DNA of 46,913 nt from Candidatus Parcubacteria bacterium (GTDB taxonomy: Bacteria > Patescibacteriota > Saccharimonadia > Saccharimonadales > 2-12-FULL-41-12), in contig JAHWKM010000009.1 of NCBI GenBank assembly GCA_019347895.1, forward strand, positions 1 to 46,913. Reading direction: 5' to 3'. The position numbers and the translations under genes are program-made. The notes beneath the pieces are model-generated. The model saw nothing but the letters and a program-made list of their open reading frames with translations. It had not been told where the DNA came from and did no database searches. This document shows positions 2,187 through 40,535 of this stretch, in pieces (position 1 is the stretch's first letter; every line of letters starts with the position of its first letter).

Positions 2187-2248
2187 GCCAACAATTTTAG
2201 TGAAAATTTATAATCCTTTCGCCTTATGGTTAATGAGAGCTTGAGACA

Positions 2249-2320
2249 TGTTCTTCTAATGAAGAACCAAATTGTTACTTTTGTTTCGTCAAAAGTAACC
2301 AAAACCGATCGGGCGTTCTA
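2249..2320 (+). repeat. Partial R2-type end (two tandem hairpins)
   Basis: Two successive perfect hairpins, GTTCTTC/GAAGAAC and GTTACTTTTG/CAAAAGTAAC, are followed by a GGGCG-containing stretch. The same tandem-hairpin arrangement starts the complete R2 repeats elsewhere in the window, so this appears to be a truncated copy. It separates the rpf-like gene from the glutaredoxin. Confidence 0.5.
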
Positions 2321-2387
2321 CCTAACATAACTGGGAAAATGATTCTAAAAATGCTAGGCTTTGGGGAGGAATGTTTAAATTTTAATC

Positions 2388-2684
2388 ATGATAAAGCTTT
2401 ATCAGGCGGAATGGTGTCCTCATTCACATAAGATCCGGCAGCGGCTTACCGAACTTGGCGTGCCGTTTATTGCGATGCAAGTTTCAGTAGACCGCGAGCA
2501 GCGAGCAGAGCTGAAGCAGGTAAGCGGGCAAGACACTATACCGGCTGTCGTGCTGGAAGACGGCACTGTCCTGAGCGGCAAAGACGAAACAATCTTGAGC
2601 AAACTCAACGAAATTTACCCGGAACCGCCAGAAGCGGCCGAACACAAAGAAAAAGATAAAAAGAACTACCCCTTCGGTGGCTAA
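2388..2684 (+). CDS. Glutaredoxin-like protein
   Basis: A 98-residue thioredoxin-fold protein. IKLYQAEWCPHSHKIRQRL carries the active-site motif CPHS at residues 10-13 (one redox cysteine, monothiol-like, versus CPYC in classical glutaredoxins). TIPAVVLEDG supplies the cis-proline near residue 52, and GKDETILSKLNE resembles the C-terminal helix of glutaredoxin/GST N-terminal domains. The tail is charged (EHKEKDKKN). Likely role: thiol-disulfide exchange in the cytoplasm. A GGGGAGG stretch at 2363-2369 is 18 bases upstream, farther than a normal ribosome site. It stands alone between repeats. Confidence 0.8.
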   Translation: MIKLYQAEWCPHSHKIRQRLTELGVPFIAMQVSVDREQRAELKQVSGQDTIPAVVLEDGTVLSGKDETILSKLNEIYPEPPEAAEHKEKDKKNYPFGG

Positions 2685-2716
2685 GAACCAGAGCAGTCTT
2701 TTTTTTATAAAAAAGT

Positions 2717-2968
2717 AATGACATTTCGGCGGTACTTCGTACCTACCCCGACCTACTTTCTTGTGTTGACAAGAAAGTAGGCAAAGAAACAACAGCAGGT
2801 TGCCAAACGCGACTGCCTTGAGATACCAGACTGGCTGGTTAGGCAAAAAACGTCCCTTCGGGGCCGGTCTTCGAATTTATATTTAATATAAGATGATTCT
2901 CAGACTAGCTTTTGCCTAAGCCATTCCAACCGGCCTGATTCAAACCAATCGGTTTAGCAAATGCTGAG
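2717..2968 (+). repeat. R1 structured repeat, copy a
   Basis: An intergenic element shared with 10993-11230 (-), 27924-28166 (-) and 30669-30910 (+). Order: short hairpin CGGTAC-TTC-GTACC, terminal hairpin CTTTCTTGTG/CAAGAAAG, the conserved GAGATACCAG segment, then a nested palindrome with outer arms AGGCAAAA and TTTTGCCT, and an ACCAATCGGTTT end. In the other copies the arms read GAAGCAAAA/TTTTGCTTC, so both sides changed together. The structure is therefore under constraint. Together with R2a it brackets the gene at 3114-3524. Confidence 0.75.
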
Positions 2969-3113
2969 AAAAAATAAGTTAGGATTCATCGATAACAAAT
3001 CCTAGTTTTAGCGTTAAAACTAGGATGAGCCCCAAAAGAAACAACTATAAAACCCCCCTTAAAAACCGTGTTCTCCGTAGCTTCAAGCGAAGAAGAATGC
3101 TATCCTTCTCGTC

Positions 3114-3524
3114 ATGAAGGCTTATCAAGCAAAAAACCAAAAACTGCCAGGTACTTCATATAGAGAAATAGAGCCACGGGCCAGGCATCTTTATAATATC
3201 GAACGAAAAAGGACTAAGCGCAATGCTTACATTCGCTCGGCATTTTTCAAAAATGACAAAATATTTTTAACACGTTTTTGGAATCATTTGTCACAAAAGA
3301 GGCAACGCGACCGCAAGCGGCGACTAAAGTATTTTCCTTGCGGGCTGGAGCTTGTTAGACACTCAAGGATTGAACCAGTATCAAAAGAGAATCCTAACAA
3401 AAGAAGCGAGATACTGCATCGATTTGTTGGAATTACTCCAGATAAGGAAATTTTCTTTGTTCAAATTATTGAAGATAAAAAGTCTGGAAACAAGTATTTA
3501 ATTTCCATATTTCCAGCGGGATAA
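3114..3524 (+). CDS. Hypothetical protein with a possible BECR-type nuclease-like C-terminus
   Basis: A 136-residue basic protein (many K/R before residue 75). The C-terminal part, RHSRIEPVSKENPNKRSE then HRFVGIT, FFVQIIEDKKSGNKY and ISIFPA, resembles compact BECR-fold (RelE/barnase/colicin-like) nuclease-type domains. This is a visual impression, not a search. The ATG follows an extended -10 box TGCTATCCT (3098-3106) by 7 bases, so the transcript should start at or next to the AUG. It is the only gene between R1a and R2a and has no partner antitoxin visible. A 16-base perfect palindrome lies just after the stop. Confidence 0.6.
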   Translation: MKAYQAKNQKLPGTSYREIEPRARHLYNIERKRTKRNAYIRSAFFKNDKIFLTRFWNHLSQKRQRDRKRRLKYFPCGLELVRHSRIEPVSKENPNKRSEILHRFVGITPDKEIFFVQIIEDKKSGNKYLISIFPAG

Positions 3525-3542
3525 AAAAAGGCCTCCCGCAAG

Positions 3543-3558
3543 TGTAGTTTATAAACTA
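3543..3558. terminator. Perfect palindrome after the lone gene
   Basis: GTAGTTTATAAACTAC is a perfect 16-base palindrome 19 bases after the stop at 3524. It could act as a hairpin end for the transcript, but no T-run follows, so a terminator role is uncertain. Confidence 0.3.
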
Positions 3559-3727
3559 CGCGCCGAAGGTCTTAATTCAAATATAGCAAAAAGAAAGAAA
3601 TAAATCAATATTTGAAGCGGCTAAAGTCATTTCGCACGGCTTAACAGACTTGCAGCGAGATACTTTTCCCAGCAGTAGCAAAAGAATGTAAAAGATGATT
3701 TTTATTAAAATACTTCTTATTTAGAAA

Positions 3728-4052
3728 GTTATTTCACCGCTATTTCATAGCTGGAGGTGTTCTTTCAAGAAGAACCAAGACAAGTTCTTTCAATAAAGAA
3801 TCAAATTCATTCTTTTGTACCGACAAAAGAATGCAAAAACTCTTGGGCGTCGAGCCATCGTTATTGATCTCATTGTCAAAAAGCACAATGCTCGGCAAAC
3901 TCACCCCGCCTTAATTAATTCAATAGAAATAGAGGGCGGGGCTTAACACTGCCTCGCTAGTAATTGTGCTTTTGACATTCGCTAATCAGGACGGCTCTCT
4001 ATGCCCAAACCCAATAAGCAGAATCGAAAAACCTTATTTTCCGATGATTGAT
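3728..4052 (+). repeat. R2 structured repeat, copy a
   Basis: Related to 10249-10488 (-), 26899-27200 (+) and 30971-31221 (-). It opens with tandem hairpins (GTTCTT-, TTCTTT- and CATTCTTTTGT-type arms), then a conserved CTCTTGGGCGTCGA block. A nested palindrome follows with outer arms TTGTCAAAAAGCACAAT and ATTGTGCTTTTGACA and inner arms CCCCGCC/GGCGGGG. It ends with CAGGACGGCTCTCTATGCCC. In copy c the outer arms read TTGTCAAAAACAACAAT and ATTGTTGTTTTGACA, which are matched changes. It precedes the restriction-modification island. Confidence 0.75.
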
Positions 4053-4150
4053 AGAGCCAAACCAACCAACCCAAACTAGACCCGCCCGCTAGTACAACCC
4101 AAGTAACTACTGGGAAAACCCCTTAAAAAATGCTATTCTATCTCTAAACT

Positions 4151-6883
4151 ATGTCTTTACCTTTGAATGAAATTCGTGCTCGTTCTGCTGCTTTTGCTGA
4201 AAGGTGGAAGGGTGTATCAAGCGAACAAGGTGAGAGGCAGTCTTTTTGGAATGAATTTTTTGAAATTTACGGTACTGATCGAAAAAGCGTGGCCATTTTT
4301 GAGAGTGCTGTTAATAGATTAGGAAGAGCGCAAGGCTTTATTGATCTTTTCTGGCCAGGCTTAGTAATAGTAGAGCACAAAAGTCTTGGTAAGCCTCTTG
4401 ACGCTGCTTTTGATCAAGCGGCTGATTATGCTTCTTTTTTACCCCCTAAAGACCATCCGAGATATATCATAACCTCTGATTTTCATAGCATTAGATTGTA
4501 TGATTTGTCCGCCAAAGACGGCCCTAAACATTGGGAAATTAATCTAGAAGAATTGCCTAAAAAAGCCGATATGTTTAGTTTCTTAGGTGGCTACAAAAAA
4601 CAAGAAATTATTGAAGAAGATCCCGTTAACCGTAAGGCAGCCGAGAGGTTTGCCGAGCTTCATGACCAACTTAAGTCTACTGGCTACTCGGGGCATGAGT
4701 TAGAAGTTTTGTTAGTGCGTATTTTATTTTGCTTATTTGCTGAAGACAGTGGAATTTTTGAAAGAAATCAATTCCACGATCTCATATATAACGGCACAGA
4801 TATCTACGGTAATAACCTTGGCCCCCATCTTATGCAGCTGTTTGATGTGCTTAATAAGCCCAAAGACAAAAGGCAGTCAAATCTTGATGAAAATTTAAAT
4901 AAATTCCCCTATATAAATGGCAAACTTTTTGAAGAACGCATAGCTACCCCAACATTTGATTATAAAATGCGAGATTGGCTACTTGAAACAGCGCATAAAC
5001 TTGATTGGAGTAGCATTAGTCCGGCTATTTTTGGGGCTATGTTCCAGGGTGTTATGGAGCCAAAACAACGACGCAGTCTTGGAGCTCACTACACAAGCGA
5101 ACAAAACATTATGAAGGTAATCAAGCCATTATTCTTAGATGATTTATGGAAAGAATTTGAGAATGTAAAGGATAACCGTTCAGAACTTTTAGCTTTTCAT
5201 GATAAAATATCATGCCTTAAGTTTTTAGATCCGGCTTGCGGATGTGGTAATTTTCTAGTTGTTTCATATAAAGAGCTAAGGCGATTGGAGCTAGAAATTA
5301 TTAAAATCACTTGCTCTGTTCCAGGCATTGAAATGAAAGGTCTCAAAGTTAGTTTAAAATCTCTTACAAAATGCAACGTAGACCAATTTTACGGAATCGA
5401 AATAGAAGAATTTCCAGCACAAATTGCCCAGGTAGCATTATGGCTTACTGACGTGCAAATGAACAATGAAGCCGCCGATTATTTCGGTAAGCCTTTAGTT
5501 AGGCTTCCGCTACTGAACTCCGCAACCATTATTAATGAAAATGCGCTAGAAGCGGATTGGCACGAGTTAGTTAAACCAAGTCAGCTAGATTATTTATTTG
5601 GAAATCCTCCGTTTAGCGGTGGCAAGCAAATGAATCAAGATCAAAGAGACCAAATTGTCGAGCTTTTTCCTAAAGGCAGCGGGGCAGGAGTATTGGACTT
5701 TGTGGCTGGCTGGTATGTCAAAGCCATAGATTATATAAAAGACACACAGATAAAAGTTGCATTCGTATCAACCAACTCTATAACTCAGGGCGAGCAGGTC
5801 AGTATCTTATGGCAATACCTATTAGATAAAGGGGCAAAAATCAACTTTGCACATCGCACTTTCCGTTGGAATAACGAAGCAAGCGGCAAAGCCGCTGTTT
5901 ACTGCGTCATAATTGGCTTTTGGCTAAAGAATGAAATCGACAAAACTCTATACGATTATGCAGAAGTCAACGGTGAACCGCATGGCACAATCGTAAAAAA
6001 CCTCAATCCATATCTTATAGATGGTCCAAATGTCATTATTAAAAAAAGAACAAACCCTATGTGCAATGTTCCAAAAATGCAGTTCGGCAATATGCCTCTC
6101 GATGGTGGGTATTTACTTTTGACGACAAAAGAAAAAAGTGCATTCATAGAATCTGAGCCTTTGGCAAAAGACTATATAAAGAAATTTATTGGCGCTAAAG
6201 AGTTTCTAAACAGACAAACAAAATGGTGCCTTTGGCTTATTGGTACTACTCCAGATCAACTTCACAAAATGCCTCAAGTGCTGAAGCGCGTGGAAGAAGT
6301 TAAGAAGTTTAGATTATCAAGTAAGGCTCTTTCAACCCAAAAGTTTGCATCTTCACCGGCCCTCTTCAGAGATCGTAATTGGCCGGATAGCTCAATAGTA
6401 GTTCCTAGGGTTTCTTCTGAAAACCGACGCTACATACCTATGGGCTTCTTTGATAAAAATTCCATCGTAGGCGACACCTGCATGAGTATTCCAAACGGTA
6501 ACATGTTTCATTTCGGAGTCTTAGAAAGCGAAATGCATATGACTTGGATGCGTTATGTAGCTGGCAGGCTAGAAAGCCGCTATCGTTATTCTAAAGATAT
6601 TGTTTACAATAATTTTCCTTGGCCCAAAGCGAGCTCAGAGGAACAAAAAACTATAGAACAAGCCGCTCAAAATGTTTTAAGTATTCGAGAGAAATATCCG
6701 GATAGCTCATTAGCTCATCTTTATGGTCCGCTAACCATGCCGCCAGATTTATTCAAAGCTCATCAGACTTTGGACCAAGCCGTGGATAAACTATATAGAA
6801 AAGAGAAATTCATAGACGAAAAAGACCGCATGCAATTTCTTTTGAAAAATTATCAGGAATTAACAAAATCGAGAAAATTATGA
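4151..6883 (+). CDS. MmeI-like single-chain type IIL restriction endonuclease/DNA adenine methyltransferase
   Basis: A 910-residue enzyme matching the MmeI plan: nuclease, helical spacer, methylase, specificity domain. The nuclease motif is D65-X9-E75-H-K77, the D-X9-EXK spacing of MmeI. Methylase motif I is LDPACGCGNF (359-368) and motif IV is NPPF (485-488), typical of N6-adenine methylation. The last ~330 residues should hold the target recognition and C-terminal domains. In this family one protein both cuts and protects by hemimethylation, so it works without a partner. It is followed after 27 bases by the ParB-like/REase gene. An extended -10 TGCTATTCT at 4131-4139 ends 11 bases before the ATG, leaving a very short leader and no ribosome site. 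Confidence 0.9.
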   Translation: MSLPLNEIRARSAAFAERWKGVSSEQGERQSFWNEFFEIYGTDRKSVAIFESAVNRLGRAQGFIDLFWPGLVIVEHKSLGKPLDAAFDQAADYASFLPPKDHPRYIITSDFHSIRLYDLSAKDGPKHWEINLEELPKKADMFSFLGGYKKQEIIEEDPVNRKAAERFAELHDQLKSTGYSGHELEVLLVRILFCLFAEDSGIFERNQFHDLIYNGTDIYGNNLGPHLMQLFDVLNKPKDKRQSNLDENLNKFPYINGKLFEERIATPTFDYKMRDWLLETAHKLDWSSISPAIFGAMFQGVMEPKQRRSLGAHYTSEQNIMKVIKPLFLDDLWKEFENVKDNRSELLAFHDKISCLKFLDPACGCGNFLVVSYKELRRLELEIIKITCSVPGIEMKGLKVSLKSLTKCNVDQFYGIEIEEFPAQIAQVALWLTDVQMNNEAADYFGKPLVRLPLLNSATIINENALEADWHELVKPSQLDYLFGNPPFSGGKQMNQDQRDQIVELFPKGSGAGVLDFVAGWYVKAIDYIKDTQIKVAFVSTNSITQGEQVSILWQYLLDKGAKINFAHRTFRWNNEASGKAAVYCVIIGFWLKNEIDKTLYDYAEVNGEPHGTIVKNLNPYLIDGPNVIIKKRTNPMCNVPKMQFGNMPLDGGYLLLTTKEKSAFIESEPLAKDYIKKFIGAKEFLNRQTKWCLWLIGTTPDQLHKMPQVLKRVEEVKKFRLSSKALSTQKFASSPALFRDRNWPDSSIVVPRVSSENRRYIPMGFFDKNSIVGDTCMSIPNGNMFHFGVLESEMHMTWMRYVAGRLESRYRYSKDIVYNNFPWPKASSEEQKTIEQAAQNVLSIREKYPDSSLAHLYGPLTMPPDLFKAHQTLDQAVDKLYRKEKFIDEKDRMQFLLKNYQELTKSRKL

Positions 6884-6910
6884 AAGAAATAGATAATGAA
6901 AGGAATATTG

Positions 6911-8380
6911 ATGAGTAAGCCAAGGAAATGGGTGCACAGGACCATTAATGCTAATCGCTTAAATCTAGATTTACACAACCCACGCTTGCCAAAGTACGTA
7001 AAAGAGCATAAAGATGAGAACATTATTCGTAACCATTTATTAGCTAAAACTGAAGTAATGAGAATAGCTCGCAGCATAGCAAATAATGGTTATCACAAAA
7101 CAGCTGTTAGTATTGTTATAAATGAAGGTCGAAACTTCGTCGTGCTTGATGGAAACCGACGACTAGCAGCGTGCCAAGTTTTACTTAAACCAAGTCTTGC
7201 CTCAAATCCTAGAGATCAAAAAGAGCTTAAGGAACTAGCAAAAAGCTTGAACATAGATGAGCTAAAAAGAATTAGGATTGCCGTTGCACCTTCGCGTAAA
7301 GAAGCAAATAAAGAAATATGGGATATCCATGTAAGTAAATTGTTAAGACCGTGGGAAAGGCTAGAACGAATCAGAATGTACGGAGAGCTAATTGAAACGG
7401 GGGAATATACAGTTCCCGCTGCTGCTAAAGCCTACAATGTACCGCTCGCTACGTTTAAGGAGGAGCTCCAGACACTTTTCTTTTATGAAAAAATTGCTGA
7501 AGCAAAAGAGCTAGATGAAGATGACACAAATTTAAGAAAAACATTTAACATGATTGAAAGAATCCTATTGAGTACCAACGGTAAAAATATACTAGAGTAT
7601 TCAATCGATGAAACAGGTAATATTATAGCCAAAAATAAAAAACAGTTTGACTCCACATTTAAACAACTTTTGCCTTATGTCGGCGGAGACAATAAACTAA
7701 AAGCCCAAATTACTCAAGATGAACTTGTAGACGAGGTTTATAGTAAAATTGCTCCAAAAAAATTTCCTCCAAAAAAGAAGCTCCCTCCCAAAAAGACTCA
7801 AGATAAGTCAACAAAACCCAATAAGCCAAAAAGCCCTGATCAAAGCGATGGAAATTTTCCATTGAAGGTTGTCAATGGGGACGAAAGAATATTTAATATT
7901 CAGACCAACCAGGAAGCCATATTAATTATTCGTGCGATTGCAAGCAGGTTCCACGCAGTTGTAAGCAAGCTAAAAAACGCGCAACGTAGATCATCAAAAA
8001 CACATTTATTAGTAAACGACGAATATGACGTCCAGTACCTTCTCGAGGCGATTCTAGAACTTTTCTTTAAAAATGTTCGTCCGGAAGAGTGGACTCCTTC
8101 TTACTTAGGTGGATCTAGTAGAGTAGATTTTCTACTTTCAGAATTTCAAATTGTGATCGAGGTTAAGCTCGTAAGTGACAAATTAAAAGATAAAGAGCTA
8201 GGTAAGCAACTTATGGAAGATATCTTGCATTACAATGTTATGTCTGAATGCAAAACTCTCATTTGTTTTATTTATAATCCAGACGGCAAATTAAAAAACC
8301 CCAGTGTAATAAAAGCTGATTTAGAGAAAAAGACGGTTACTGACATTGATGATGTCATTGCCCTTATAGAGCCTCATTGA
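6911..8380 (+). CDS. ParB-like domain fused to a DpnII/MboI-type PD-(D/E)XK nuclease
   Basis: A 489-residue protein. The start at 6911 is chosen over ATG 6896 because AAAGGA (6899-6904) lies 6 bases before it. The N-terminal part has the ParB/Srx-like signature VVLDGNRRLAACQ (DGNRRLAA at 80-87), and helices around 155-195 resemble a helix-turn-helix. A Lys/Pro-rich linker lies near 285-320. The C-terminal domain carries D406-X10-E417-V-K419 followed by KELGKQLMEDILHY, the layout of the DpnII/MboI-like restriction domain. The D12 methylase follows after 62 bases, so this is probably the cutting subunit of a second restriction-modification system. A ParB-like module on such a nuclease is unusual. 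Specificity is unknown. Confidence 0.75.
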   Translation: MSKPRKWVHRTINANRLNLDLHNPRLPKYVKEHKDENIIRNHLLAKTEVMRIARSIANNGYHKTAVSIVINEGRNFVVLDGNRRLAACQVLLKPSLASNPRDQKELKELAKSLNIDELKRIRIAVAPSRKEANKEIWDIHVSKLLRPWERLERIRMYGELIETGEYTVPAAAKAYNVPLATFKEELQTLFFYEKIAEAKELDEDDTNLRKTFNMIERILLSTNGKNILEYSIDETGNIIAKNKKQFDSTFKQLLPYVGGDNKLKAQITQDELVDEVYSKIAPKKFPPKKKLPPKKTQDKSTKPNKPKSPDQSDGNFPLKVVNGDERIFNIQTNQEAILIIRAIASRFHAVVSKLKNAQRRSSKTHLLVNDEYDVQYLLEAILELFFKNVRPEEWTPSYLGGSSRVDFLLSEFQIVIEVKLVSDKLKDKELGKQLMEDILHYNVMSECKTLICFIYNPDGKLKNPSVIKADLEKKTVTDIDDVIALIEPH

Positions 8381-8442
8381 TTTAATTATTAAATTATAAT
8401 TTTTAAGAAGTCGTCGAGTTTGTTATCATACACTTGACGATT

Positions 8443-9288
8443 ATGCTTACTACAAAAATAAAAAGAAAACACTATTTTACGCCTCTACGTTATCCTGGGG
8501 GTAAAACCTCTCTGTTCAATTATTTTGATCAGATTATTAAAGATAATAAATGGCGCGACATCAAATACATTGAGCCATATGCTGGCGGAGCGGGTGCGGC
8601 TTTATCATTATTGCTATTAGAAAAAGTAGATTCGATTGTAATAAATGATTATGACCCAGCTATTTATGCGTTTTGGAAGTCTGTTCTAGATAATACAGAT
8701 GATTTTATTGACCTTATCGACTCTACACCATTAAGCGTAAACGAATGGGAGACTCAAAAAAGAATCTATAAAATTGCGGACTATAACAAGCTACTTAGAC
8801 TTGGGTTTGCTACCTTTTATTTAAACAGAACAAATAGGTCGGGGGTACTTAATGGCGGTCCTATTGGCGGCAAAGCTCAAGAAGGAAATTGGAAAATCGA
8901 TGCGCGATATAACAAGAAGGCTCTTATTGATCGAATTAGACTCATTTCCCTTTACAAAGATCGAATCAAAGTCACAAAAAGCGATGGAATAAAGGTTATA
9001 AAAAAATATGCGATCGATCCCAAGGCCTTTTTGTATATTGACCCGCCATATTTTGTTAAGGGCGCAAATTTATATCTAAATGCATTTAAGCTAGAAGACC
9101 ATAAAAGATTAGCAGAGGTTTTGAATGAGCTTAATAACTCAAAGTGGATTTTAACTTATGATAATGAAGAAAATATCAAAAAGCTTTATCTGAGACGAAG
9201 ACAAGAACCTTTTTCACTCAAATATTCTGTTCATCGAAATTCAAAAGTCGGTTCCGAAATTATGATTTTTTCAGACTCTATAAACTGA
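8443..9288 (+). CDS. D12-class DNA adenine-N6 methyltransferase (Dam/M.DpnII-like)
   Basis: A 281-residue enzyme from ATG 8443; a TTG at 8434 is a weaker alternative. It has the D12 N-terminal signature TPLRYPGGKT (13-22), SAM motif I IEPYAGGAGAAL (43-54), a specificity region with FYLNRTNRSGVLNGGP (125-140), catalytic motif DPPY at 200-203 and the late ILTYDNEE stretch. It transfers methyl from SAM to adenine in a short target and presumably protects the host from the nuclease encoded just upstream. Members of this class often modify GATC, but the target cannot be read here. The length is normal for the family. Confidence 0.9.
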   Translation: MLTTKIKRKHYFTPLRYPGGKTSLFNYFDQIIKDNKWRDIKYIEPYAGGAGAALSLLLLEKVDSIVINDYDPAIYAFWKSVLDNTDDFIDLIDSTPLSVNEWETQKRIYKIADYNKLLRLGFATFYLNRTNRSGVLNGGPIGGKAQEGNWKIDARYNKKALIDRIRLISLYKDRIKVTKSDGIKVIKKYAIDPKAFLYIDPPYFVKGANLYLNAFKLEDHKRLAEVLNELNNSKWILTYDNEENIKKLYLRRRQEPFSLKYSVHRNSKVGSEIMIFSDSIN

Positions 9289-9695: not shown

Positions 9696-9782
9696 GTGGT
9701 TTTATCACTTGCTGTCTGCTTTTTCGGTTCCTTTTTTCAGACAAAAAAGGAACTCACGCAAAGCTATGAAATAGCGGTGAAC
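9696..9782 (-). repeat. R1 partial copy
   Basis: Matches the outer end of R1 on the minus strand: the GGTTTTATCAC-TTGCTG segment, a hairpin with arms GGTTCCTTTTTTCAG/AAAAAAGGAAC, and GCTATGAAATAGCGG. The nested palindrome half is missing. With R2b it brackets the gene at 9825-10196. Confidence 0.6.
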
Positions 9783-10196: not shown

Positions 10197-10248
10197 GCAA
10201 AGCTTCACTACTTCACAGAAACCTTCATTGAGGGTGTCTAGTTTCACT

Positions 10249-10488
10249 TGGGTTTGGGCATAGAGAGGCGTCCTGATTGGCGAATGTCAAAAGCACAATT
10301 ATTCGCTGCAGAAGCGAAGCGAGGCAGTGTTAAGACCTGTCGGGCCTGTAAATATGTATAGACAGGTTGAGTTTGCCGAGCATTGTGCTCTTTGACAATG
10401 AGGCAGTCATGATGGATCGACGCCCAAGAGTTTTTGCATTCTTTTGTCGGCACAAAAGAATGAATTTGGTTCTTTATTGAAAGAACAT
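10249..10488 (-). repeat. R2 structured repeat, copy b
   Basis: A minus-strand copy running from TGGGTTTGGGCATAGAG to the hairpin-bearing end ATTGAAAGAAC. Outer palindrome arms: TGTCAAAAGCACAATTATTC and CATTGTGCTCTTTGACAA. The inner part differs from copies a and d (GACCTGTCGGGCC with GACAGGTTGAG), so the inner sequence is exchangeable while the arms are kept. It sits between two lone genes. Confidence 0.75.
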
Positions 10489-10544
10489 CCACTGTAAGAT
10501 ACGAAGTATCTTCAAAAAATTACTTTTTGCTTATAATTAAACAA

Positions 10545-10952
10545 ATGAACATCTACCTAGACATCGACGGCGTCCTACTAATCAACGAAAACCAGGCGGC
10601 GCCTTTTGCTGATGAATTTTTGCAGTATATTCTTACTAATTATCCGAATAGTACTTATTGGCTGACTACGCATTGCTGGAGGGGAGAGAATAGGGCGGTC
10701 GAGATACTTACACCTGTATTAAAGGAGAAAACACTTAAGATGTTAAGTATAATTAAGCCTACTGAGTGGGGTAATTATAAAACCGACGCGATCGACTTCA
10801 GCCAGCCATTTTTATGGTTTGACGATGATCTATTCCCGGAAGAAGAAGTCATACTGCAGCAAAACAATGCCTCGGGCAGCCAAGTTAGAGTAAATTTATA
10901 CAAAGACCCAAACCAACTCCAAAAAATCCTAGATTCATTTCCTGTCCGTTAG
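10545..10952 (+). CDS. HAD-like small phosphatase-type protein
   Basis: A 135-residue protein starting MNIYLDIDGVLL, which carries the HAD motif I DxDGV at residues 5-9. FLWFDDDLFPEE near residue 90 looks like the acidic motif IV. It is short for a HAD enzyme, so it would be a capless phosphatase-like domain with unknown substrate. ATG 10545 is chosen because TATAAT at 10532-10537 ends 7 bases before it, which predicts a leaderless mRNA; an upstream in-frame start at 10527 would lie inside the promoter. It is the single gene between R2b and R1b. Confidence 0.7.
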   Translation: MNIYLDIDGVLLINENQAAPFADEFLQYILTNYPNSTYWLTTHCWRGENRAVEILTPVLKEKTLKMLSIIKPTEWGNYKTDAIDFSQPFLWFDDDLFPEEEVILQQNNASGSQVRVNLYKDPNQLQKILDSFPVR

Positions 10953-10992
10953 AATTACAGAGAAAATCAAGCATTTTCTCCTCCGCTTTTTA

Positions 10993-11230
10993 CCAGCATT
11001 GATAAAACCGATTGAAGCGAATCAGCTTGGCTGGAGTCACTGAAGCAAAAGCTAGTCCAGGCCGCTCCTTTGGGAAATAGGGCTGGACCGGCCCCGAAGG
11101 GACGTTTTTTGCTTCACCAGACAAGCTGGTATCTCGGCTCAGTAGTGTTTTGTCACCTGCTGTCTGCTTTTTCGGTTCGTTTTTTCAGACAAAAAAGGAA
11201 CTCGGGATCGGTACGAAGTACCGCCGAAAA
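10993..11230 (-). repeat. R1 structured repeat, copy b
   Basis: A minus-strand R1: CAGCATTGATAAAACCGATT end, arms TGAAGCAAAAGCTAGTCCAG and GGAC...TTTTTTGCTTCACCAG, then the GGTATCTC block and a terminal hairpin GGTTCG/AAGGAAC with the GGTACGAAGTACC end. It is nearly identical in its inner part to copy c. Confidence 0.75.
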
Positions 11231-26898: not shown

Positions 26899-27200
26899 AA
26901 TGTTCTTCTGCTGAAGAACCAAGCCATCTTCTTTCGACAAAGAAGCAAGTCCATTCTTTTGTGCCGACAAAAGAATGCAAAAACTCTTGGGCGTCGATCC
27001 ATCGTGACTGTCTCATTGTCAAAAACAACAATGGCTTGGGCGACTCCTTTCAGTCGGCCCAGTCTTTCTATAAATTTCATAAGCAAAGACTGGGCTAGCT
27101 CCCAAGCCTTAAAATTGTTGTTTTGACATTCGCCAATCAGGACGGCTCTCAATGCCCAAACCCAAAAAAGCAGAATCGAAAAAATTCGATGATTGATTAA
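26899..27200 (+). repeat. R2 structured repeat, copy c
   Basis: Starts with three tandem hairpins (GTTCTTC-TGCT-GAAGAAC, CTTCTTT-CGAC-AAAGAAG, ATTCTTTTGT-GCCG-ACAAAAGAAT). Palindrome arms read TTGTCAAAAACAACAAT and ATTGTTGTTTTGACA, versus GCAC-containing arms in copy a: both sides have changed to keep pairing. Inner arms CAAAGACTGGGC and GCCCAGTCTTT also pair. Ends with a GAATCGAA/TTCGAT hairpin. Adjoins the 3' end of the lone gene at 27209. Confidence 0.75.
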
Positions 27201-27208
27201 TAATATGC

Positions 27209-27829
27209 CTAAGCCGCAGCTGGCATTAATTGTTCAGAATATACAACTATACCTGGTCTAAAAGTTCTATATTCTGTTTCATTTTCTCTACCAATTGTCG
27301 TATAGCCGGACAGAAATTCTGGGTTGGTACCTGAATCGTTAGAAGCCATATGTGCCATCTCGCCTCCAGCTCCAATTCTCGCTATACTTTCGCCCGTTAA
27401 CCACGTGTCTGTTTTGGCCGATTCCCCAGATGCGTCTATATGTTGACCCTCGTCTAAGCCTAGTACCATGCCCTTGTATACTTCCCACGTCATGGCCGTA
27501 CGAGTATCGTGTCGTTCACCGTCAACTTCAACAACGTATTTTTCGGTTTTTTTTGGGTCAAATATGTCTACCCATGATCTGCGTAAACCGTTTGGCGCGC
27601 TGTACACAAGAACAGCCTTTCTTTCTCTCTCGGTTTCGCTAACCACTACAGAAAAATCTTCTTCTTGCACACTAAATCTCTCGGCCATAGCAGTTTTCCC
27701 GGCTCGAATACGTTCACCAACCCTATCATAAACTCTTTCCTCGGCAGCTATTAGCGCTCGGCCAACGCTTCTTTCAACTGGCTGTTCTTCTTTAGCATAT
27801 TTCGGCTTTAGTACCTCGGGTAATTTCAT
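27209..27829 (-). CDS. Hypothetical protein
   Basis: A 206-residue protein, family not recognised. The N-terminal half is highly charged and helical (EEQPVERSVGRALIAAEERVYDR). A middle region looks beta-rich (DFSVVVSETERERKAVLVYS, YVVEVDGERHDTRTAMTWEVY), and the C-terminus is Gly/Ser/Thr-rich. No signal peptide or membrane segment. GAGGAG lies 5 bases before the ATG, a proper ribosome site and unlike the leaderless lone genes. It is the only gene between R2c and R1c. Confidence 0.6.
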   Translation of the reverse strand: MKLPEVLKPKYAKEEQPVERSVGRALIAAEERVYDRVGERIRAGKTAMAERFSVQEEDFSVVVSETERERKAVLVYSAPNGLRRSWVDIFDPKKTEKYVVEVDGERHDTRTAMTWEVYKGMVLGLDEGQHIDASGESAKTDTWLTGESIARIGAGGEMAHMASNDSGTNPEFLSGYTTIGRENETEYRTFRPGIVVYSEQLMPAAA

Positions 27830-28209: not shown

Positions 28210-30498
28210 CTATTTACTTGGCCGGCGTTTGGGGCGTTTCTTGCGGGCTGGGGCGGCGGCTAGAAGTTCTTTGCAGGTTTGTTCGTCCAGTTCCTCGGGC
28301 TTTAGATCTTTGGTTATGCGGGCGTTTTTTTTGCCGTCGGTTATGTAGGGTCCGAATGGCCCGTTGATTATAGAGATACCGCTGTCAAACTGGCGTATGT
28401 ACTTATTTTTTTCCTTCTCTAGTTTCTCCGCATAAAGCTCGCGGGCTTTAGCTTCGTCAATAGTCAAGGGATCCAGCGGCTTAATCGAAATATAAATTTT
28501 ATCTACCTGGACGTAGGGGCCAAATCTGCCGATGTTAGCCAGTATAGGTTTGCCGTCTTCGGTTTTACCCACTTCCCGGGGCAGCTTAAACATTTCCAAG
28601 GCTTGTTCTAAGGTCACGGAATTTATGCCCGTGCCTTCAGGCAGCGGTGCAAAGGCCGGCTTTTCCTCGCTCTCTGTTTCGCCTTTTTGCAGCATAGGAC
28701 TAAACCGGCCGTAGCGGGCCATAATCGGTTTTTTGGTTTTTGGATCATGGCCTAATAATCTGGCCTGCGACGTTTCCTCGCGGCTGACATCAGCGGATTT
28801 CTCTATTAACGGATGGAAAGATCCGTAAAATTTCTTGAGCATCTCTTGCCAGCCTATTTTCCCCTCGGCTATTTCGTCGAAGCTGGCTTCGGCTTTGGCT
28901 GTAAAATCATAATTAACAATCTCGCCGAAATGCTTTACCAGGAAATCGGTAGTCACGTCCGCGATATATGTCGGCAATAATTTGCCGCGTTCAGCTCCTG
29001 TCGTTTCTTCCGTTTCTTCATGGCTGATCCTGCCGTTTTTCAAAATAAGATTTTTTAGTTTTCGTTTCACGCCTTCGGCGTCGCTTTTTTCAATATAGCC
29101 CCTGGTTTGGATTGTAGAAATGGTCGGCGCGTAAGTACTTGGCCGGCCAATCCCAAGCTCCTCCAGCTTGCGTACCAGCGAGGCTTCAGAATATCGGGCC
29201 GGTGGTCTGTCATAAGTTTCTACCCCGCGGATATAGTCCAGTTGCAGCTGGTCGCCTATTTTTACTTCCGGCAAAATGACGTCATCTTTGCCGCCACCGT
29301 AAACCTTTAAATAACCGTCAAAGCTAAGTATCTCGCCTTTTGCTATAAAGATGTCGCTGGAGGAGCTGTTTGCGATTTTAATTTCGCTGCGGTCAAATTG
29401 GGCGCTGGCCATTTGGCTGGCTAAAGCCCGCCGCCAGATAAGTTTGTAGAGTTTTATTTGCTGGCTGTCAGCGCCCGCCTCCAGCGCTCTAATGTTGGAA
29501 GGCCTGATTGCTTCATGGGCTTCCTGGGCGGAGGCGCTCTTTGTTTTATATTTTCTGACCTGGTGATAGCGTTCTCCATATTCAGAATTTATATATTCCG
29601 CCATGGCAGATATAGAGCTATCTGATAAGTTTGTGCTGTCCGTCCGGATATATGTAATGTGGCCGTTTTCATACAGTCTTTGCGCCAGCGTCATGGTTTG
29701 TTTGACACTAAAGCCCAATTTAGTCGAAGCTTCCTGCTGGAGACTGCTGGTCGTAAATGGAGCGCTCGGGTTGCGCGAACCTGGCTTTTGGTCGATGTCG
29801 TCTACTTTAAAATTAGCGTTTTTGAGTTTTTCTAACAGTTCCAGGGCGGTTTTTGCATCAGGTAAGGCCTTGGCTAGTTCAGCCTTTAGCGCTTGACCAT
29901 TGACTTCAAAATGGGCGCTGACCCTAAACTGCGATTTGGACTGAAAATTCTTAATTTCACGTTCGCGTTCCACTATCAGCCGGACAGCAACAGACTGTAC
30001 TCGGCCGGCGCTTAAGCCGCGCTGGATCTTTTTCCAAAGCACCGGACTTAATTCGTAACCCACCAGCCGGTCTAGTATCCTTCTAGCTTGCTGGGCGTCG
30101 ACTAACTTCTCATTTACTACCCTTGGATTTTTGACGGCCTGGTCGATAGCGGATTTGGTAATTTCATGAAAGACAATTCGTTTGGCGGATTTGGGGTCAA
30201 GTTTTAGGGCGGCGCAAAGATGCCAGGCAATAGCCTCCCCTTCCCGGTCTTCATCGCTGGCCAGCCAGACGGTCGGATTGTCTTTTAGGCTTTGCTTAAG
30301 CTCTGATACAACTTTTTTCTTCGAGGCCGGAATTTCATAATCCGGAATAAAGCCGTTCTCTACGTCAATAGACAGGCCTTTCGCCGGCAAATCACGTATA
30401 TGGCCAAAGGAACTCTTGACCATAAAATCATTACCCAAGAATTTTTCAATAGTCTTAGCCTTGGCCGGGGATTCAACAATAACAAGGTTCTTACTCAT
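28210..30498 (-). CDS. topA: DNA topoisomerase I
   Basis: A 762-residue type IA topoisomerase that relaxes negative supercoils. Toprim domain: VESPAKAKTIEKFLG with Glu9, and SDEDREGEA with D82 and D84. Catalytic tyrosine Y283 is in ITYIRTDS. GLSAGRVQSVAVRLI and EAHEAIRPSN are family motifs. The C-terminus has repeats with GRFGPYVQ and GPFGPYITDGKK instead of four-cysteine zinc fingers, then a basic tail KKRPKRR. Lack of zinc fingers is common in several phyla. Monocistronic, between repeat regions. Confidence 0.96.
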   Translation of the reverse strand: MSKNLVIVESPAKAKTIEKFLGNDFMVKSSFGHIRDLPAKGLSIDVENGFIPDYEIPASKKKVVSELKQSLKDNPTVWLASDEDREGEAIAWHLCAALKLDPKSAKRIVFHEITKSAIDQAVKNPRVVNEKLVDAQQARRILDRLVGYELSPVLWKKIQRGLSAGRVQSVAVRLIVEREREIKNFQSKSQFRVSAHFEVNGQALKAELAKALPDAKTALELLEKLKNANFKVDDIDQKPGSRNPSAPFTTSSLQQEASTKLGFSVKQTMTLAQRLYENGHITYIRTDSTNLSDSSISAMAEYINSEYGERYHQVRKYKTKSASAQEAHEAIRPSNIRALEAGADSQQIKLYKLIWRRALASQMASAQFDRSEIKIANSSSSDIFIAKGEILSFDGYLKVYGGGKDDVILPEVKIGDQLQLDYIRGVETYDRPPARYSEASLVRKLEELGIGRPSTYAPTISTIQTRGYIEKSDAEGVKRKLKNLILKNGRISHEETEETTGAERGKLLPTYIADVTTDFLVKHFGEIVNYDFTAKAEASFDEIAEGKIGWQEMLKKFYGSFHPLIEKSADVSREETSQARLLGHDPKTKKPIMARYGRFSPMLQKGETESEEKPAFAPLPEGTGINSVTLEQALEMFKLPREVGKTEDGKPILANIGRFGPYVQVDKIYISIKPLDPLTIDEAKARELYAEKLEKEKNKYIRQFDSGISIINGPFGPYITDGKKNARITKDLKPEELDEQTCKELLAAAPARKKRPKRRPSK

Positions 30499-30580
30499 AT
30501 ATGTATGCTTATGCTAATTTGACTTACGTAACTCGTCAAGCCTACGTTGATTATGATTTCTAGTCAATAAAATTTTTTAG

Positions 30581-30650
30581 AAAGCCATTTCGCACGGTCG
30601 CCGCGGCGACCTACCCCGACCCACTTCCTTGTGTCGACAAGAAATTAGAA
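30581..30650 (+). repeat. R1 end, partial
   Basis: GCCATTTCGCACGGTCGCC-GCGGCGACC then CCCGACCCACTTCCTTGTG and CGACAAGAAATTAG. It matches the left end of R1a but stops after the terminal hairpin, immediately before R1d. Confidence 0.55.
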
Positions 30651-30668
30651 CAATTTTGTTAAAAATAA

Positions 30669-30910
30669 AGTCATTTCACCGCTAACTTCGTTAGCTGACG
30701 TGGGTTCCTTTTTTGTCTGAAAAAAGGAACCGAAAAAGCAGACAGGCGGTATCAAAACGCGACTAGTCTGAGATACCAGGCCTGTCCGTGAAGCAAAAGA
30801 CTCCCTCCGGTCGGTCCTGTTCTATTTTATATAAGGAGCGAACAGGACTTGGTTTTGCTTCAGTGACTCGGACAGGCCTGATTCAGCCTAATCGGTTTTG
30901 CTAAGCCTGG
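30669..30910 (+). repeat. R1 structured repeat, copy d
   Basis: Full copy: CGCTAAC-TTC-GTTAGC, terminal hairpin GGTTCCTTTTTTGTC/AAAAAAGGAACC, conserved GAGATACCAG, arms GTGAAGCAAAA and TTTTGCTTCAGTGACT, inner GGTCCTGTTC/GAACAGGAC, and the CCTAATCGGTTTTGCTAAGC end. Directly followed by R2d with no gene between them. Confidence 0.75.
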
Positions 30911-30970
30911 CCAAAAGCAGATGAGAAATTCTTGAATTTCTCAAATAATAAATAATGATAATTCTAATTA

Positions 30971-31221
30971 TTGGGTTTGGGCATAGAGAGCCGTCCTGAT
31001 TGGCGAATGTCAAAAACACAATTAGTAGCGAGGCAGTGTCTAAGCCCCGCCTTCTATTGAATTAATTAAGGCGGGGTGAGTTTGCCGAGCATTGTGTTTT
31101 TTGACAATGAGACAGTAAAGACGCGGAATATGCCCAATCGGTTTGGAATACCTTTGCCGAAACAAAGGTATTGATTTGCTTCTTTATCTAAAGAAGAGGT
31201 TTGGTTCTTCGGCAGAAGAAC
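30971..31221 (-). repeat. R2 structured repeat, copy d
   Basis: Minus-strand copy. Arms TGTCAAAAACACAATTAG and ATTGTGTTTTTTGACAA, inner GCCCCGCC/GGCGGGG as in copy a. It ends with three tandem hairpins, the last (GTTCTTC-GGCA-GAAGAAC) finishing on the first base of the dprA stop triplet. The dprA transcript must run directly into these hairpins. Confidence 0.75.
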
Positions 31222-32087
31222 TACTTCAACTTCCAGTGGTTATTGCCTAAAGCGGAGATAGCGCCTTTTATTTCCAGCATGGTTAGGGTTTGTTGAAATA
31301 TACCTATTTCCATTTCGCTTTTGGCTAAGAGTTCATCCCCGGCAGAAGCACCGCCTCGTAGCAGCTCAAGCAAATTTGTTTCATGTTCATTATCGCCTAG
31401 CAAACTAACTTTTTCTGAAGGACTTTTAGTTATGATTTTTAGCGCGTCGAAGATATCTTGCTCGCTGGTTACGGAGATTGCCCCGGATTTAATAAGGTTA
31501 TTAGTGCCGCTGCTGGTTGGGCTGGTAATATTGCCCGGAACGGCTAAAACCGGCCTGCCTATCTCCATAGCGAAATTGGCAGTGTACAAACTGCCGCTGC
31601 GCTCGGCAGCCTCGGTAACTAAAAGCGCGTCAGACAGCCCGGCGATGATTCGGTTTCTTTGGATAAAGGATTCCCTTCTGGGCATGAAGTAATCATCGAA
31701 TTCACTCAGAAGTGTTCCGCAGCTTTCTAAAATCTGCTTAGCCAGCCCGCGGTGCATGGCCGGGTAAATTGCCTTAAGCCCGCTTGGTAGTACGGCGATA
31801 GTTTTGCCTTTGGCATTTAAAGCTGCGGCGTGGGCAATACTGTCGACACCAATAGCCAGCCCGCTAACTATACAGACACCTGCCCTTGCGGCGGATTCAG
31901 CAAAACGCTCGGTAATTTGCCTGCCGTAAACCGTAACCTTCCTGGAGCCGACAATCCCCAGTACCGGCTGTTTTAATTGCTCTTGCAGTTTTGCGCCTTG
32001 CGATTTCAACTCCTTTGGAGGCTCATGCAATTGCTCAAGACGCTGAGGATAGTTATTTTGCTTTTTGGATATAATCTCTAGCTGCAT
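31221..32087 (-). CDS. dprA: DNA processing protein DprA
   Basis: A 288-residue protein from ATG 32087; a longer frame to 32198 adds 37 residues that do not match the family. DprA loads RecA on single-stranded DNA taken up during transformation. Rossmann-type core: VLGIVGSRKVTVYG, then VSGLAIGVDSIAHAAAL, AVLPSGLKAIYP, RNRIIAGLSDALLVTEA, SGSLYTANFA and GRPVLAVPGN. The C-terminal ~60 residues fit the winged-helix DprA tail. CPR bacteria often keep com/dprA genes for DNA uptake. The stop codon touches the end of repeat R2d. Confidence 0.93.
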   Translation of the reverse strand: MQLEIISKKQNNYPQRLEQLHEPPKELKSQGAKLQEQLKQPVLGIVGSRKVTVYGRQITERFAESAARAGVCIVSGLAIGVDSIAHAAALNAKGKTIAVLPSGLKAIYPAMHRGLAKQILESCGTLLSEFDDYFMPRRESFIQRNRIIAGLSDALLVTEAAERSGSLYTANFAMEIGRPVLAVPGNITSPTSSGTNNLIKSGAISVTSEQDIFDALKIITKSPSEKVSLLGDNEHETNLLELLRGGASAGDELLAKSEMEIGIFQQTLTMLEIKGAISALGNNHWKLK

Positions 32088-39681: not shown

Positions 39682-39761
39682 GGACTTGCGTAAACAGCTA
39701 GTTTCCAGAGCTTCTATTGAAAATTGCTAATTGCAAATTGAAGATTGGAGCGAAGCGACCA

Positions 39762-39912
39762 GGTCCCTTCGTCTAGTGCGAGAAATGCCAGTGGCATTTC
39801 GCAAGGCCGGAGCGCGACGGCGTGAGGCATGCCGAAAAGAATTTTCAGCAGAAAATTACTTTTGGGTAGGATATCTTAATGTCAGAAATATCTGTGGGTC
39901 GAATCCTCAATG
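39762..39912 (+). pseudogene. tRNA-Glu-like copy A, interrupted in the D loop
   Basis: GGTCCCTTCGTCTAG matches the acceptor/D-arm start of a tRNA-Glu. It is followed by an ~87-base folded insert (39777-39863), then GGTAGGATATC and a T-arm-like GGGTCGAATCC. The anticodon arm does not fold properly, so a working tRNA is unlikely even if the insert were removed. Confidence 0.5.
39777..39863 (+). repeat. CAAGG structured element, copy A
   Basis: Hairpin GAAATGCC-AGT-GGCATTTC, then GCAAGGCCGGA, hairpin GCGC-GACG-GCG, GCCG (pairs with CGG), and hairpin AATTTTC-AGCA-GAAAATT. Same layout as copies B1, C and E. Confidence 0.65.
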
Positions 39913-39917
39913 AACTG

Positions 39918-39923
39918 TATAAT
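39918..39923 (+). promoter_or_regulatory. -10 box before tRNA-like copy B
   Basis: TATAAT ends 12 bases before the first base of copy B. The same TATAAT with a 12-base gap precedes copy C, so these copies look individually transcribed. Confidence 0.45.
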
Positions 39924-39951
39924 TATCTCCGTTAAGGCCTCATCGTCTAAC

Positions 39952-40040
39952 GTGAGGATTGCCCGGTGGCAATCTGCAAGACCGGAGCTGCGACGGCAGC
40001 GAGGTGGGGTCGACGAATTTTTCAGCAGAAAAATATCGGT
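39952..40040 (+). repeat. CAAGG structured element, copy B1
   Basis: GTGAG, hairpin GATTGCC/GGCAATC, TGCAAGACCGGA, hairpin GCTGC/GCAGC, GGGGTCGAC (GACC pairs with GGTC), hairpin ATTTTTC-AGCA-GAAAAAT, ATCGGTG. Every helix differs in sequence from copy E but still pairs. Confidence 0.7.
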
Positions 40041-40074
40041 GACTAGGACACCAGGTTCTCATCCTGGCAATGGG

Positions 40075-40146
40075 GTGAGACAAGCCGGGGGCTTGTCGCA
40101 AGGAAACCTACTCTTCAAAACTTGTTTTTGAAAGATGTAGTTTCGG
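40075..40146 (+). repeat. CAAGG structured element, copy B2
   Basis: GTGAG, hairpin ACAAGCC/GGCTTGT, CGCAAGGAAA, long hairpin CTAC-TC-TTCAAAA with TTTTTGAA-AGA-TGTAG, then TTCGGG. Shorter than A/B1/C: the GCGC hairpin is replaced. Confidence 0.6.
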
Positions 40147-40222
40147 GTGAGATGAGCTGGGAGCTGATCGCAAGGACACTTGACTGATTTGGAACTTGTT
40201 TCAAGTAAGTCAATGTTGGGCC
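40147..40222 (+). repeat. CAAGG structured element, copy B3
   Basis: Tandem with B2: GTGAG, hairpin ATGAGCT/AGCTGAT (one mismatch), CGCAAGGACA, hairpin TTGACT/AGTCAA enclosing ACTTG/CAAGT, then TTGGGCC. Same order of parts as B2. Confidence 0.6.
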
Positions 40223-40267
40223 TGCAGAATGTAGGTGCCGAAGGTAGGTCGATTCGAATCGAACATT

Positions 40268-40273
40268 TATAAT
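40268..40273 (+). promoter_or_regulatory. -10 box before tRNA-like copy C
   Basis: TATAAT ends 12 bases before copy C (40286), the same spacing as for copy B. Confidence 0.45.
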
Positions 40274-40285
40274 TAAACGCTACAT

Positions 40286-40401
40286 GGCCTCATCGTCTAA
40301 CGTGAGAAATGCCAGTGGCATTTCGCAAGGTCGGAAGCGCGACGGCGCTGAGACGGGCCCGACGAATTTTTCACAAGAAAAATATCGGTGGGTAGGACGC
40401 C
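40286..40401 (+). pseudogene. tRNA-Glu-like copy C, interrupted in the D loop
   Basis: GGCCTCATCGTCTAACG as in the intact gene, then an ~88-base element, then GGGTAGGACGCCAGG. After this the sequence leaves the tRNA (CTGTCCGGTATAATGC), so only the 5' half is present. Confidence 0.55.
40302..40389 (+). repeat. CAAGG structured element, copy C
   Basis: GTGAG, hairpin GAAATGCC/GGCATTTC, GCAAGGTCGGA, hairpin AGCGC-GACG-GCGCT, GGGCCCGAC (GTCGG pairs with CCGAC), hairpin ATTTTTC-ACAA-GAAAAAT, ATCGGTG. Best-formed copy. Confidence 0.7.
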
Positions 40402-40460
40402 AGGCTGTCCGGTATAATGCAATAATACTTTCTTGTTAGCACAGTCTTTTGAGAAAGCAT

Positions 40461-40535
40461 GGCCTCATCGTCTAACGGTTAGGACACCAGGTTCTCATCC
40501 TGGCAATGGGGGTTCGATTCCCCCTGAGGTCACCA
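40461..40535 (+). tRNA. tRNA-Glu (anticodon CTC), CCA encoded
   Basis: Complete cloverleaf: acceptor GGCCTCA/TGAGGTC (one G-U), D arm GTC/GAC, anticodon arm CCAGG-TTCTCAT-CCTGG with anticodon CTC, T arm GGGGG-TTCGATT-CCCCC, discriminator A and an encoded CCA. It reads GAG codons. It is the only intact member of the four tRNA-Glu-like copies at this site. Its 3' end is repeated at 41502-41523. Confidence 0.95.

Follow-up and report, generated by a model that had tools for sequence, protein, structure and literature searches.

The window, a stretch of 46,913 nucleotides that is contig C27 of a Saccharibacteria genome (G000; 907,117 bases on 27 contigs, 92.6% complete), contains four full copies each of two repeats, R1 and R2, together with fragments (Table 1). 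Both repeats are intergenic, multi-branched palindromes of about 170 nt preceded by hairpin leaders. The order of the first group is glutaredoxin gene, R1a, a gene for 136 amino acids, R2a, a type IIG restriction-modification (RM) gene, the PD-Lambda-5 A and B genes, R2b, a small gene, R1b and a peptide deformylase gene; that of the second is R2c, a gene for 206 amino acids, R1c, topA, R1d, R2d and dprA. R1a and R2a are co-oriented and enclose, with R2b and R1b facing them, a nested island. The single gene between R1a and R2a had been taken in the preliminary description as a cassette of its own. In view of this nested order that cassette is the left shoulder of a larger unit, and R1a-gene-R2a is not the unit that recurs: what is repeated is a convergent pair.

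Table 1. R elements and associated genes in the window (position 1 is its first nucleotide).
Feature	Position	Strand	Basis or remark
Truncated R2 (leader and first stem)	2235-2332	+	sequence match
R1a leader hairpins (GGTACTTCGTACC; ACTTTCTTGTGTTGACAAGAAAGT + AGGCAAAGAAAC), ~33 nt past glutaredoxin stop codon	2717-2791	+	reading
R1a body, multi-branched palindrome with three-way junction	2792-2966	+	alignment, fold; full R1 copy 2723-2966
136-aa orphan gene between R1a and R2a	3114-3524	+	
R2a leader hairpins	3733-3841	+	reading
R2a body	3842-4024	+	alignment, fold; full R2 copy 3769-4024
Type IIG restriction-methyltransferase (MmeI-like), cargo	4151-6883	+	
PD-Lambda-5 A-like protein, DpnII-MboI REase domain, cargo	6896-8380	+	
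PD-Lambda-5 B-like adenine methyltransferase (D12), cargo	8434-9288	+	
R1 leader fragment	9699-9781	-	
R2b (body 10251-10428), faces R2a	10248-10486	-	
Small gene between R2b and R1b, weak HAD-like similarity	10527-10952	+	E 0.03-0.1, below cut-offs
R1b (body 10994-11163), faces R1a	10987-11229	-	
R2c, left end of second cargo unit	26913-27183	+	
206-aa orphan gene, cargo of R2c/R1c	27209-27829	-	
R1c, right end of second cargo unit, leader just behind topA stop codon	27924-28137	-	
R1d, left half of compact pair between topA and dprA	30702-30909	+	
R2d, right half of compact pair, leader just behind dprA stop codon	30961-31210	-	

Copies, pairing and distribution of R elements

The copies and fragments reported earlier for the window were all recovered. 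The observation is confirmed and is larger than first noted, with 22 matches to R1 and 22 to R2 across the genome. The leader pattern is found at 25 sites in the genome and not once in a reversed control; at three of these sites (C20:67152, C21:15481 and C25:5237) neither R1 nor R2 was matched, which leaves room for additional end types or for remnants.

Pairing was surveyed on 39 R elements placed in the genome, hand-assigned from the searches. All 11 pairs of close neighbors (<150 nt apart) are convergent with their leaders outward, separated by gaps of 9-79 nt, of which five measure 52-53 nt. The joint between the paired bodies, about 50 nt long, contains a hairpin and is conserved among the 10 joints aligned; the compact form is thus an end, the joint and an inverted end. 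Among 18 more widely spaced neighbors, 5 are convergent (0.7-6.2 kb, with genes within all of them), 5 tandem and 8 divergent. Facing pairs are also found, partly by reading, in G001, G004, G005, G037 and G098, and G028 has single elements. Single elements in the present genome (C22:46326, C20:58800, C25:51606) speak against a mobile element.

Copies are up to 97% identical within the genome and about 50% identical between genera. With 16 matches to the R1 model here and one in G001, a member of the same genus, R is amplified in this genome relative to G001. R1 was matched in 10 of 148 genomes of the order. A stricter first look at a phylum sample of 286 genomes found R1 only in this genome, a weak negative because few candidates were scored in each. 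Plasmid collections queried with R2, phage collections queried with R1, and both queried with the G005 element gave no R match among the matches listed, the sole exceptions being the tRNA-Glu stretch that ends the G005 query and one 32-nt piece. Viral contigs searched for the hairpin string yielded none; two core patterns matched four viral contigs and on reading looked like chance matches.

Elsewhere in the window, repeated tRNA-Glu-like pieces (GCCTCATCGTCTAACG ... GGACACCAGGTTCTCATCCTGGCAATGGGG) lie at 39755-40532, upstream of the sole called tRNA (40461-40532), and look like broken duplicates. A similar broken tRNA-Glu copy adjoins an R element and tRNA-like sequence in G005 (L036).

Structure and constraint of the R ends

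By reading of the copies, each end consists of tandem leader hairpins on the outside and the body on the inside. Leader hairpins are exemplified by GTTCTTCTGGCGAAGAAC-CAAGCC and ACTTTCTTGTGTTGACAAGAAAGT-NNGCAAAGAAAC, and at many copies the leader starts a few nucleotides behind a stop codon, in sense with the upstream gene. The body has a closing stem, further stems, a bulge and a tip where a three-way junction bears one short and one variable hairpin; it is predicted to fold as a long bulged stem with this junction at its tip. The junction GACTCC-hairpin-AGTCGG-hairpin-TAGC is common to R1 and to R2 of the R2c type. Two copies are chimeric: L012 has an R1 leader on an R2-type body, and L005 an R1 half fused to R2.

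Further end types, R2' (GGCTTCCAGTTCTTGAGGAGTTC) and R3 (GGCCGCGCCGAAAAAACTC), share leaders and junctions with R1 and R2 (L012 1800-2036, L017 2137-2340, L018 1690-1927, L001 2045-2216), as if modules had been shuffled among end types. An exact R1 leader hairpin was also found once in an intergenic gap of an Oscillospiraceae assembly from goat cecum (L100, JAFQFH010000011.1, 6261-6296), where it is followed by GCAAAGAAAC and another long hairpin and there is no R body. The leader hairpin may be a much wider repeat type, and an AACTC-hairpin-CTCAAACA core might recur in other phyla.

The preliminary description had noted that the outer arms change together and concluded that the folded form matters. 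Those changes are real and part of a larger pattern. In an alignment of 14 R1 copies (16 less L005 and the R3-like L001 copy), 27 of the 56 pairs given by RNAalifold have two-sided changes, a count that none of 500 shuffles reached, and slid-partner controls gave 0-7 such pairs. In 18 R2 copies (20 less two of <140 nt each), 9 of 29 pairs have two-sided changes, again with 0 of 500 shuffles as high. Further pair types do not exceed shuffles in either set (76 of 500 as high for R1, 423 of 500 for R2). Among 20 R1 matches in other genomes, at about half identity, 50 of the 56 pairs covary, in an alignment that was fitted to the model, so that structure is favored in this count. Folded as single-stranded DNA, R1a and R2a have z-scores of -3.8 and -4.2. 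The TGAYTC bulge, TCGG and TACCA are conserved across genera; averaged over all columns, conservation is 0.62 at unpaired positions, scarcely more than the 0.60 at paired positions. The covariation, seen within the genome and between genera, argues that the fold is constrained and that the folded form matters, as proposed. Whether RNA or DNA folds is a separate matter: G.T and A.C mismatches, counted at pairs where Watson-Crick pairing is the majority, stand at 13:15 in R1, 17:3 in R2 (mostly in two columns) and 43:22 in other genomes, a mixed result that gives DNA no clear preference.

Cargo genes and gene gain at R borders

Facing pairs enclose from nothing to about 6 kb. Among the ORFs scanned, the proteins encoded within them include the MmeI-like type IIG enzyme, PD-Lambda-5 A and B, an SF1 helicase-nuclease and orphans; judged by homology, several are components of anti-phage systems. 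The helicase (1157 aa, with an MTES_1575 nuclease domain) shows partial-length similarity to Hhe, ProA and PDC-S37, below NCBIfam cut-offs. Orphan cargo includes the 206-aa protein of the window, proteins of 130 and 178 aa on C11, and of 205 and 186 aa on C22, at a contig end. The 136-aa gene belongs to no family and has no relative in the viral, plasmid or phage sets; its predicted structure is poor (mean pLDDT 48.8). An MzaB-like ATPase, below the NCBIfam cut-off, adjoins a single R2 (L008) for which no second end was found. G004 has two R elements on either side of a type I RM island that includes a reverse transcriptase gene; both elements face outward from the island, an arrangement that counts against the mobile-element reading.

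At loci that can be compared with relatives, gene gain coincides with R borders, in agreement with the earlier proposal. The order hare-topA-dprA is kept in all five genomes of the same family. Between hare and topA there are 1548 nt here and about 160-330 nt in the five relatives, where BLAST intervals and reading revealed no R at this site and the 206-aa gene is absent from it; the part of the hare upstream region that resembles the relatives stops just before R2c, and the R1c leader begins about 20 nt behind topA. The topA-dprA gap is 722 nt here and, by reading, about 42, 84, 193, 326 and 453 nt in the relatives, the longest of which seems to hold another ORF. In G001 topA is split into two frames with in-frame stops (C18 448-2644), an assembly error or decay. 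The ftsH-murJ gap measures about 1730 nt against 80-163 nt in the four of five genomes in which murJ was found, all four lacking R there. Between pyrF and purP, 4.2 kb with R1 and R2 facing each other across the helicase contrast with G001, where the two genes stand tail to tail with overlapping stop codons. G005 has R-type hairpins between pyrF and purP, and G004 has 1 kb of other genes and no R, which speaks against a mobile element. In G004 (C3, L162) the junction holds two small accessory ORFs; with R units there in G000 and G005, it looks like a general insertion hot spot. No target-site duplication was recognized at pyrF-purP against the empty G001 site, nor in the flanks read. Synteny with G001 does not extend to the flanks of the R1a-R1b island.

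Some R sites recur between genera: a PEGA/sortase site in G000, G001, G004 and G098 (four genomes, two families), gltX in G000 and G098 (two families), a histidine-kinase site in G000 and G005, a helicase in G004 and G005, and a prfB-like gene in G000 and G078. These gene names are by reading, and left and right genes are longest-ORF choices, some of them doubtful. Such recurrence fits long residence, preferred sites and content exchange at occupied sites as well as it fits movement.

Nature and possible movement of R elements

Candidate movers were sought among tyrosine recombinases and Y1 transposases. Each of the seven R-bearing genomes searched has a single tyrosine recombinase match (PF00589). 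The five that were read (all but those of G001 and G005) best fit Xer models and score 131-144 bits against TIGR02249, whose cut-off is 265. Y1_Tnp occurs in 45 of the 148 genomes of the order, in 5 of 10 with R1 and 40 of 138 others; G004, 97% complete and with 5 R1 matches, has none. The preliminary description had looked to a tyrosine recombinase or a REP-type transposase with matching distribution, and neither bore it out: the former is one protein per genome, Xer-like in the five read, and the latter, present here, does not track R. RAYT as the mover was further set aside in that the hairpins at two RAYT genes (G000, G028) differ from R. These genes (L119 6729-7340 on G000:C20; L088 15141-15809 on G028:C3) have their own short inverted hairpins at their flanks, which suggests that ordinary REP-RAYT systems are present in Saccharibacteria as well. 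REPINs occur also in genomes without RAYT (PMC8049555), and the RAYT distribution therefore weighs only moderately against it. In G005 (C7, L094 4850-6373) a large serine recombinase (domains Resolvase, Recombinase and zinc-ribbon) is separated from an R unit by 1.3 kb that contain a metK-like gene. No mover emerged from the enzymes covered.

Integron attC sites are recombination sites that take a folded form; they have bulges and a variable tip, stand beside single genes and bear RYYYAAC and GTTRRRY core sites at their ends. R shares the bulged palindrome, the variable tip and the neighborhood of single genes. GTTAGGC/GCCTAA lies inside the stem of some R1 copies, in reversed polarity, and others have GTGAAGC. 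R differs from attC in that its pairs are inverted and dispersed rather than forming one co-oriented array with one attC per gene, and no IntI was found among the tyrosine recombinases read. In the proposal that R1 and R2 are shape-recognized, attC-like sites that move single-gene cassettes, the constrained fold and the gain at R borders hold up; the likeness to integrons does not, given 11 of 11 pairs inverted, cargo ranging from none to several kilobases, and the Xer-like recombinases. Movement of attC cassettes by an integron integrase is barely tenable and is already contradicted by the tests made, in a genome that is 92.6% complete.

Other known systems offer partial likenesses. Tn7-like and other transposons have inverted ends enclosing defence genes; R ends, unlike theirs, are large folds, and no transposase was found for R. 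MITEs have terminal inverted repeats together with a target-site duplication; the ends of R are inverted, and no duplication was recognized at pyrF-purP or in the flanks read. The bcr1 repeat of Bacillus cereus is a lone element accompanied by a short duplication of its target, whereas R comes with paired ends and cargo and showed no duplication. Bcr1 and other stem-loop repeats of B. cereus and other bacteria resemble R in being dispersed, of similar size and predicted to have a conserved fold; bcr1 is listed with such a fold and a size of 147-167 (PMC2267715). The closest resemblance is to REPINs and BIMEs, which are non-coding and intergenic and are moved by RAYT transposases. REPINs are inverted REP pairs with a short spacer, compensatory changes and singlets as likely remnants (PMC3116915, PMC8049555), features that R shares; R too is an inverted palindrome pair around a short spacer. 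A REP is a short hairpin of 20-40 bp with a GTAG- or CGTC-type tag (PMC3733652). Each R half, by contrast, is a multi-branched body of ~170 nt plus leaders, the types R1, R2, R2' and R3 mix, the pairs carry genes, and a cognate RAYT flanked by the same repeats was not found, RAYT not tracking R and having other hairpins at its flanks. On our best reading of the tests made, R belongs to neither the REP-RAYT nor the integron family, and the system it most resembles in its working is a REPIN expanded to a cassette.

The explanation we favor is that R is a REPIN-like but far larger, cargo-capable interspersed mobile element of Saccharibacteria, whose ends are recognized as folded DNA and which is moved or copied by a factor in trans. 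We put its probability at roughly 0.46, slightly short of even. R1, R2 and their variants would be its two inverted ends; these would be recognized, most likely as single-stranded DNA, by the factor acting in trans, and the unit, with cargo or none, would insert by copying or moving into short gaps, many of which directly follow a stop codon. Alternatively, within the same explanation, units might be exchanged through their conserved ends. Mobility itself is inferred from sequence comparison. Our lean to DNA over RNA comes from the unit being an inverted pair with cargo. That Saccharibacteria swap anti-phage genes between chromosomal sites through these large folded DNA ends, as a shape-recognized mobile cassette with no dedicated recombinase and perhaps by way of the single Xer or host single-strand DNA machinery, is a tentative and somewhat doubtful extension.

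Near-identical R copies could instead serve as homology arms, cargo being exchanged between R sites by homologous recombination, for example after DNA uptake, with R not transposing as such. The high identity within the genome and the chimeric modules favor this, as do the differing contents of the PEGA/sortase site (in G001 it holds a compact pair, in G004 only R1, in G098 R, and in G000 the MzaB-like ATPase beside R2) and of pyrF-purP in G005 and G000. With R missing from hare-topA and ftsH-murJ in the relatives, however, such portable homology still needs a first insertion, and it leaves unexplained a fold kept at 50% identity; we regard it as possible rather than probable. It is unlikely that R is a structured RNA that is transcribed following the upstream gene and acts as a small RNA or within the 3' UTR, its DNA copies being passive. 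The sense leaders behind stop codons, the strong covariation and a certain surplus of G.T mismatches in R2 and the other genomes would suit an RNA, but pairs between co-directional genes have one half antisense to its neighbor (e.g. R1d, R2b, R1b), A.C is about as common as G.T in R1, and R has no Rfam family: on the window only tRNA reached the gathering threshold, and five matches at 2200-4200 (E 1.3-4.2) all fell far below it.

Were R a set of ordinary bidirectional terminators, or of REP-like nucleoid sites, that multiplied by duplication and are not mobile, the intergenic position, often behind gene tails, and the hairpin at each end would be accounted for. Yet terminator-like matches are near those of shuffles (3 against a mean of 2.1, sd 1.6, at 2600-4200; 1 against 0.4, sd 0.6, at 30490-31230), GC-rich hairpins followed by T runs not being above chance in either interval, and cargo and conserved 170-nt bodies would go unexplained, so that we hold this quite improbable. 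Template-switch correction of quasi-palindromes is known in bacteria, and the R arms are long quasi-palindromes; covariation might thus be a mutational by-product, one arm being repaired on the template of the other while the fold itself is under no selection. Such correction would be expected to iron out bulges, but the bulges and some unpaired residues listed above are kept across genera, although unpaired columns as a whole are scarcely better conserved than paired ones; this origin seems very improbable.

Searches of the open-access PMC literature for Saccharibacteria repeats, the hairpin strings, Saccharibacteria with defence or integron cassettes and palindrome-flanked defence genes brought up no description of R, subscription papers and preprints being outside its scope. 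R is real, constrained, paired, cargo-bearing and, within the collections searched, undescribed. It bears on how defence genes are gained and lost in the tiny genomes of Patescibacteria. A recognizable end with a conserved fold gives defence genes exact borders, and through their orphan cargo the R ends offer a route to uncharacterized defence genes. With R, the idea that genes can be mobile by virtue of DNA shape also becomes open to test.
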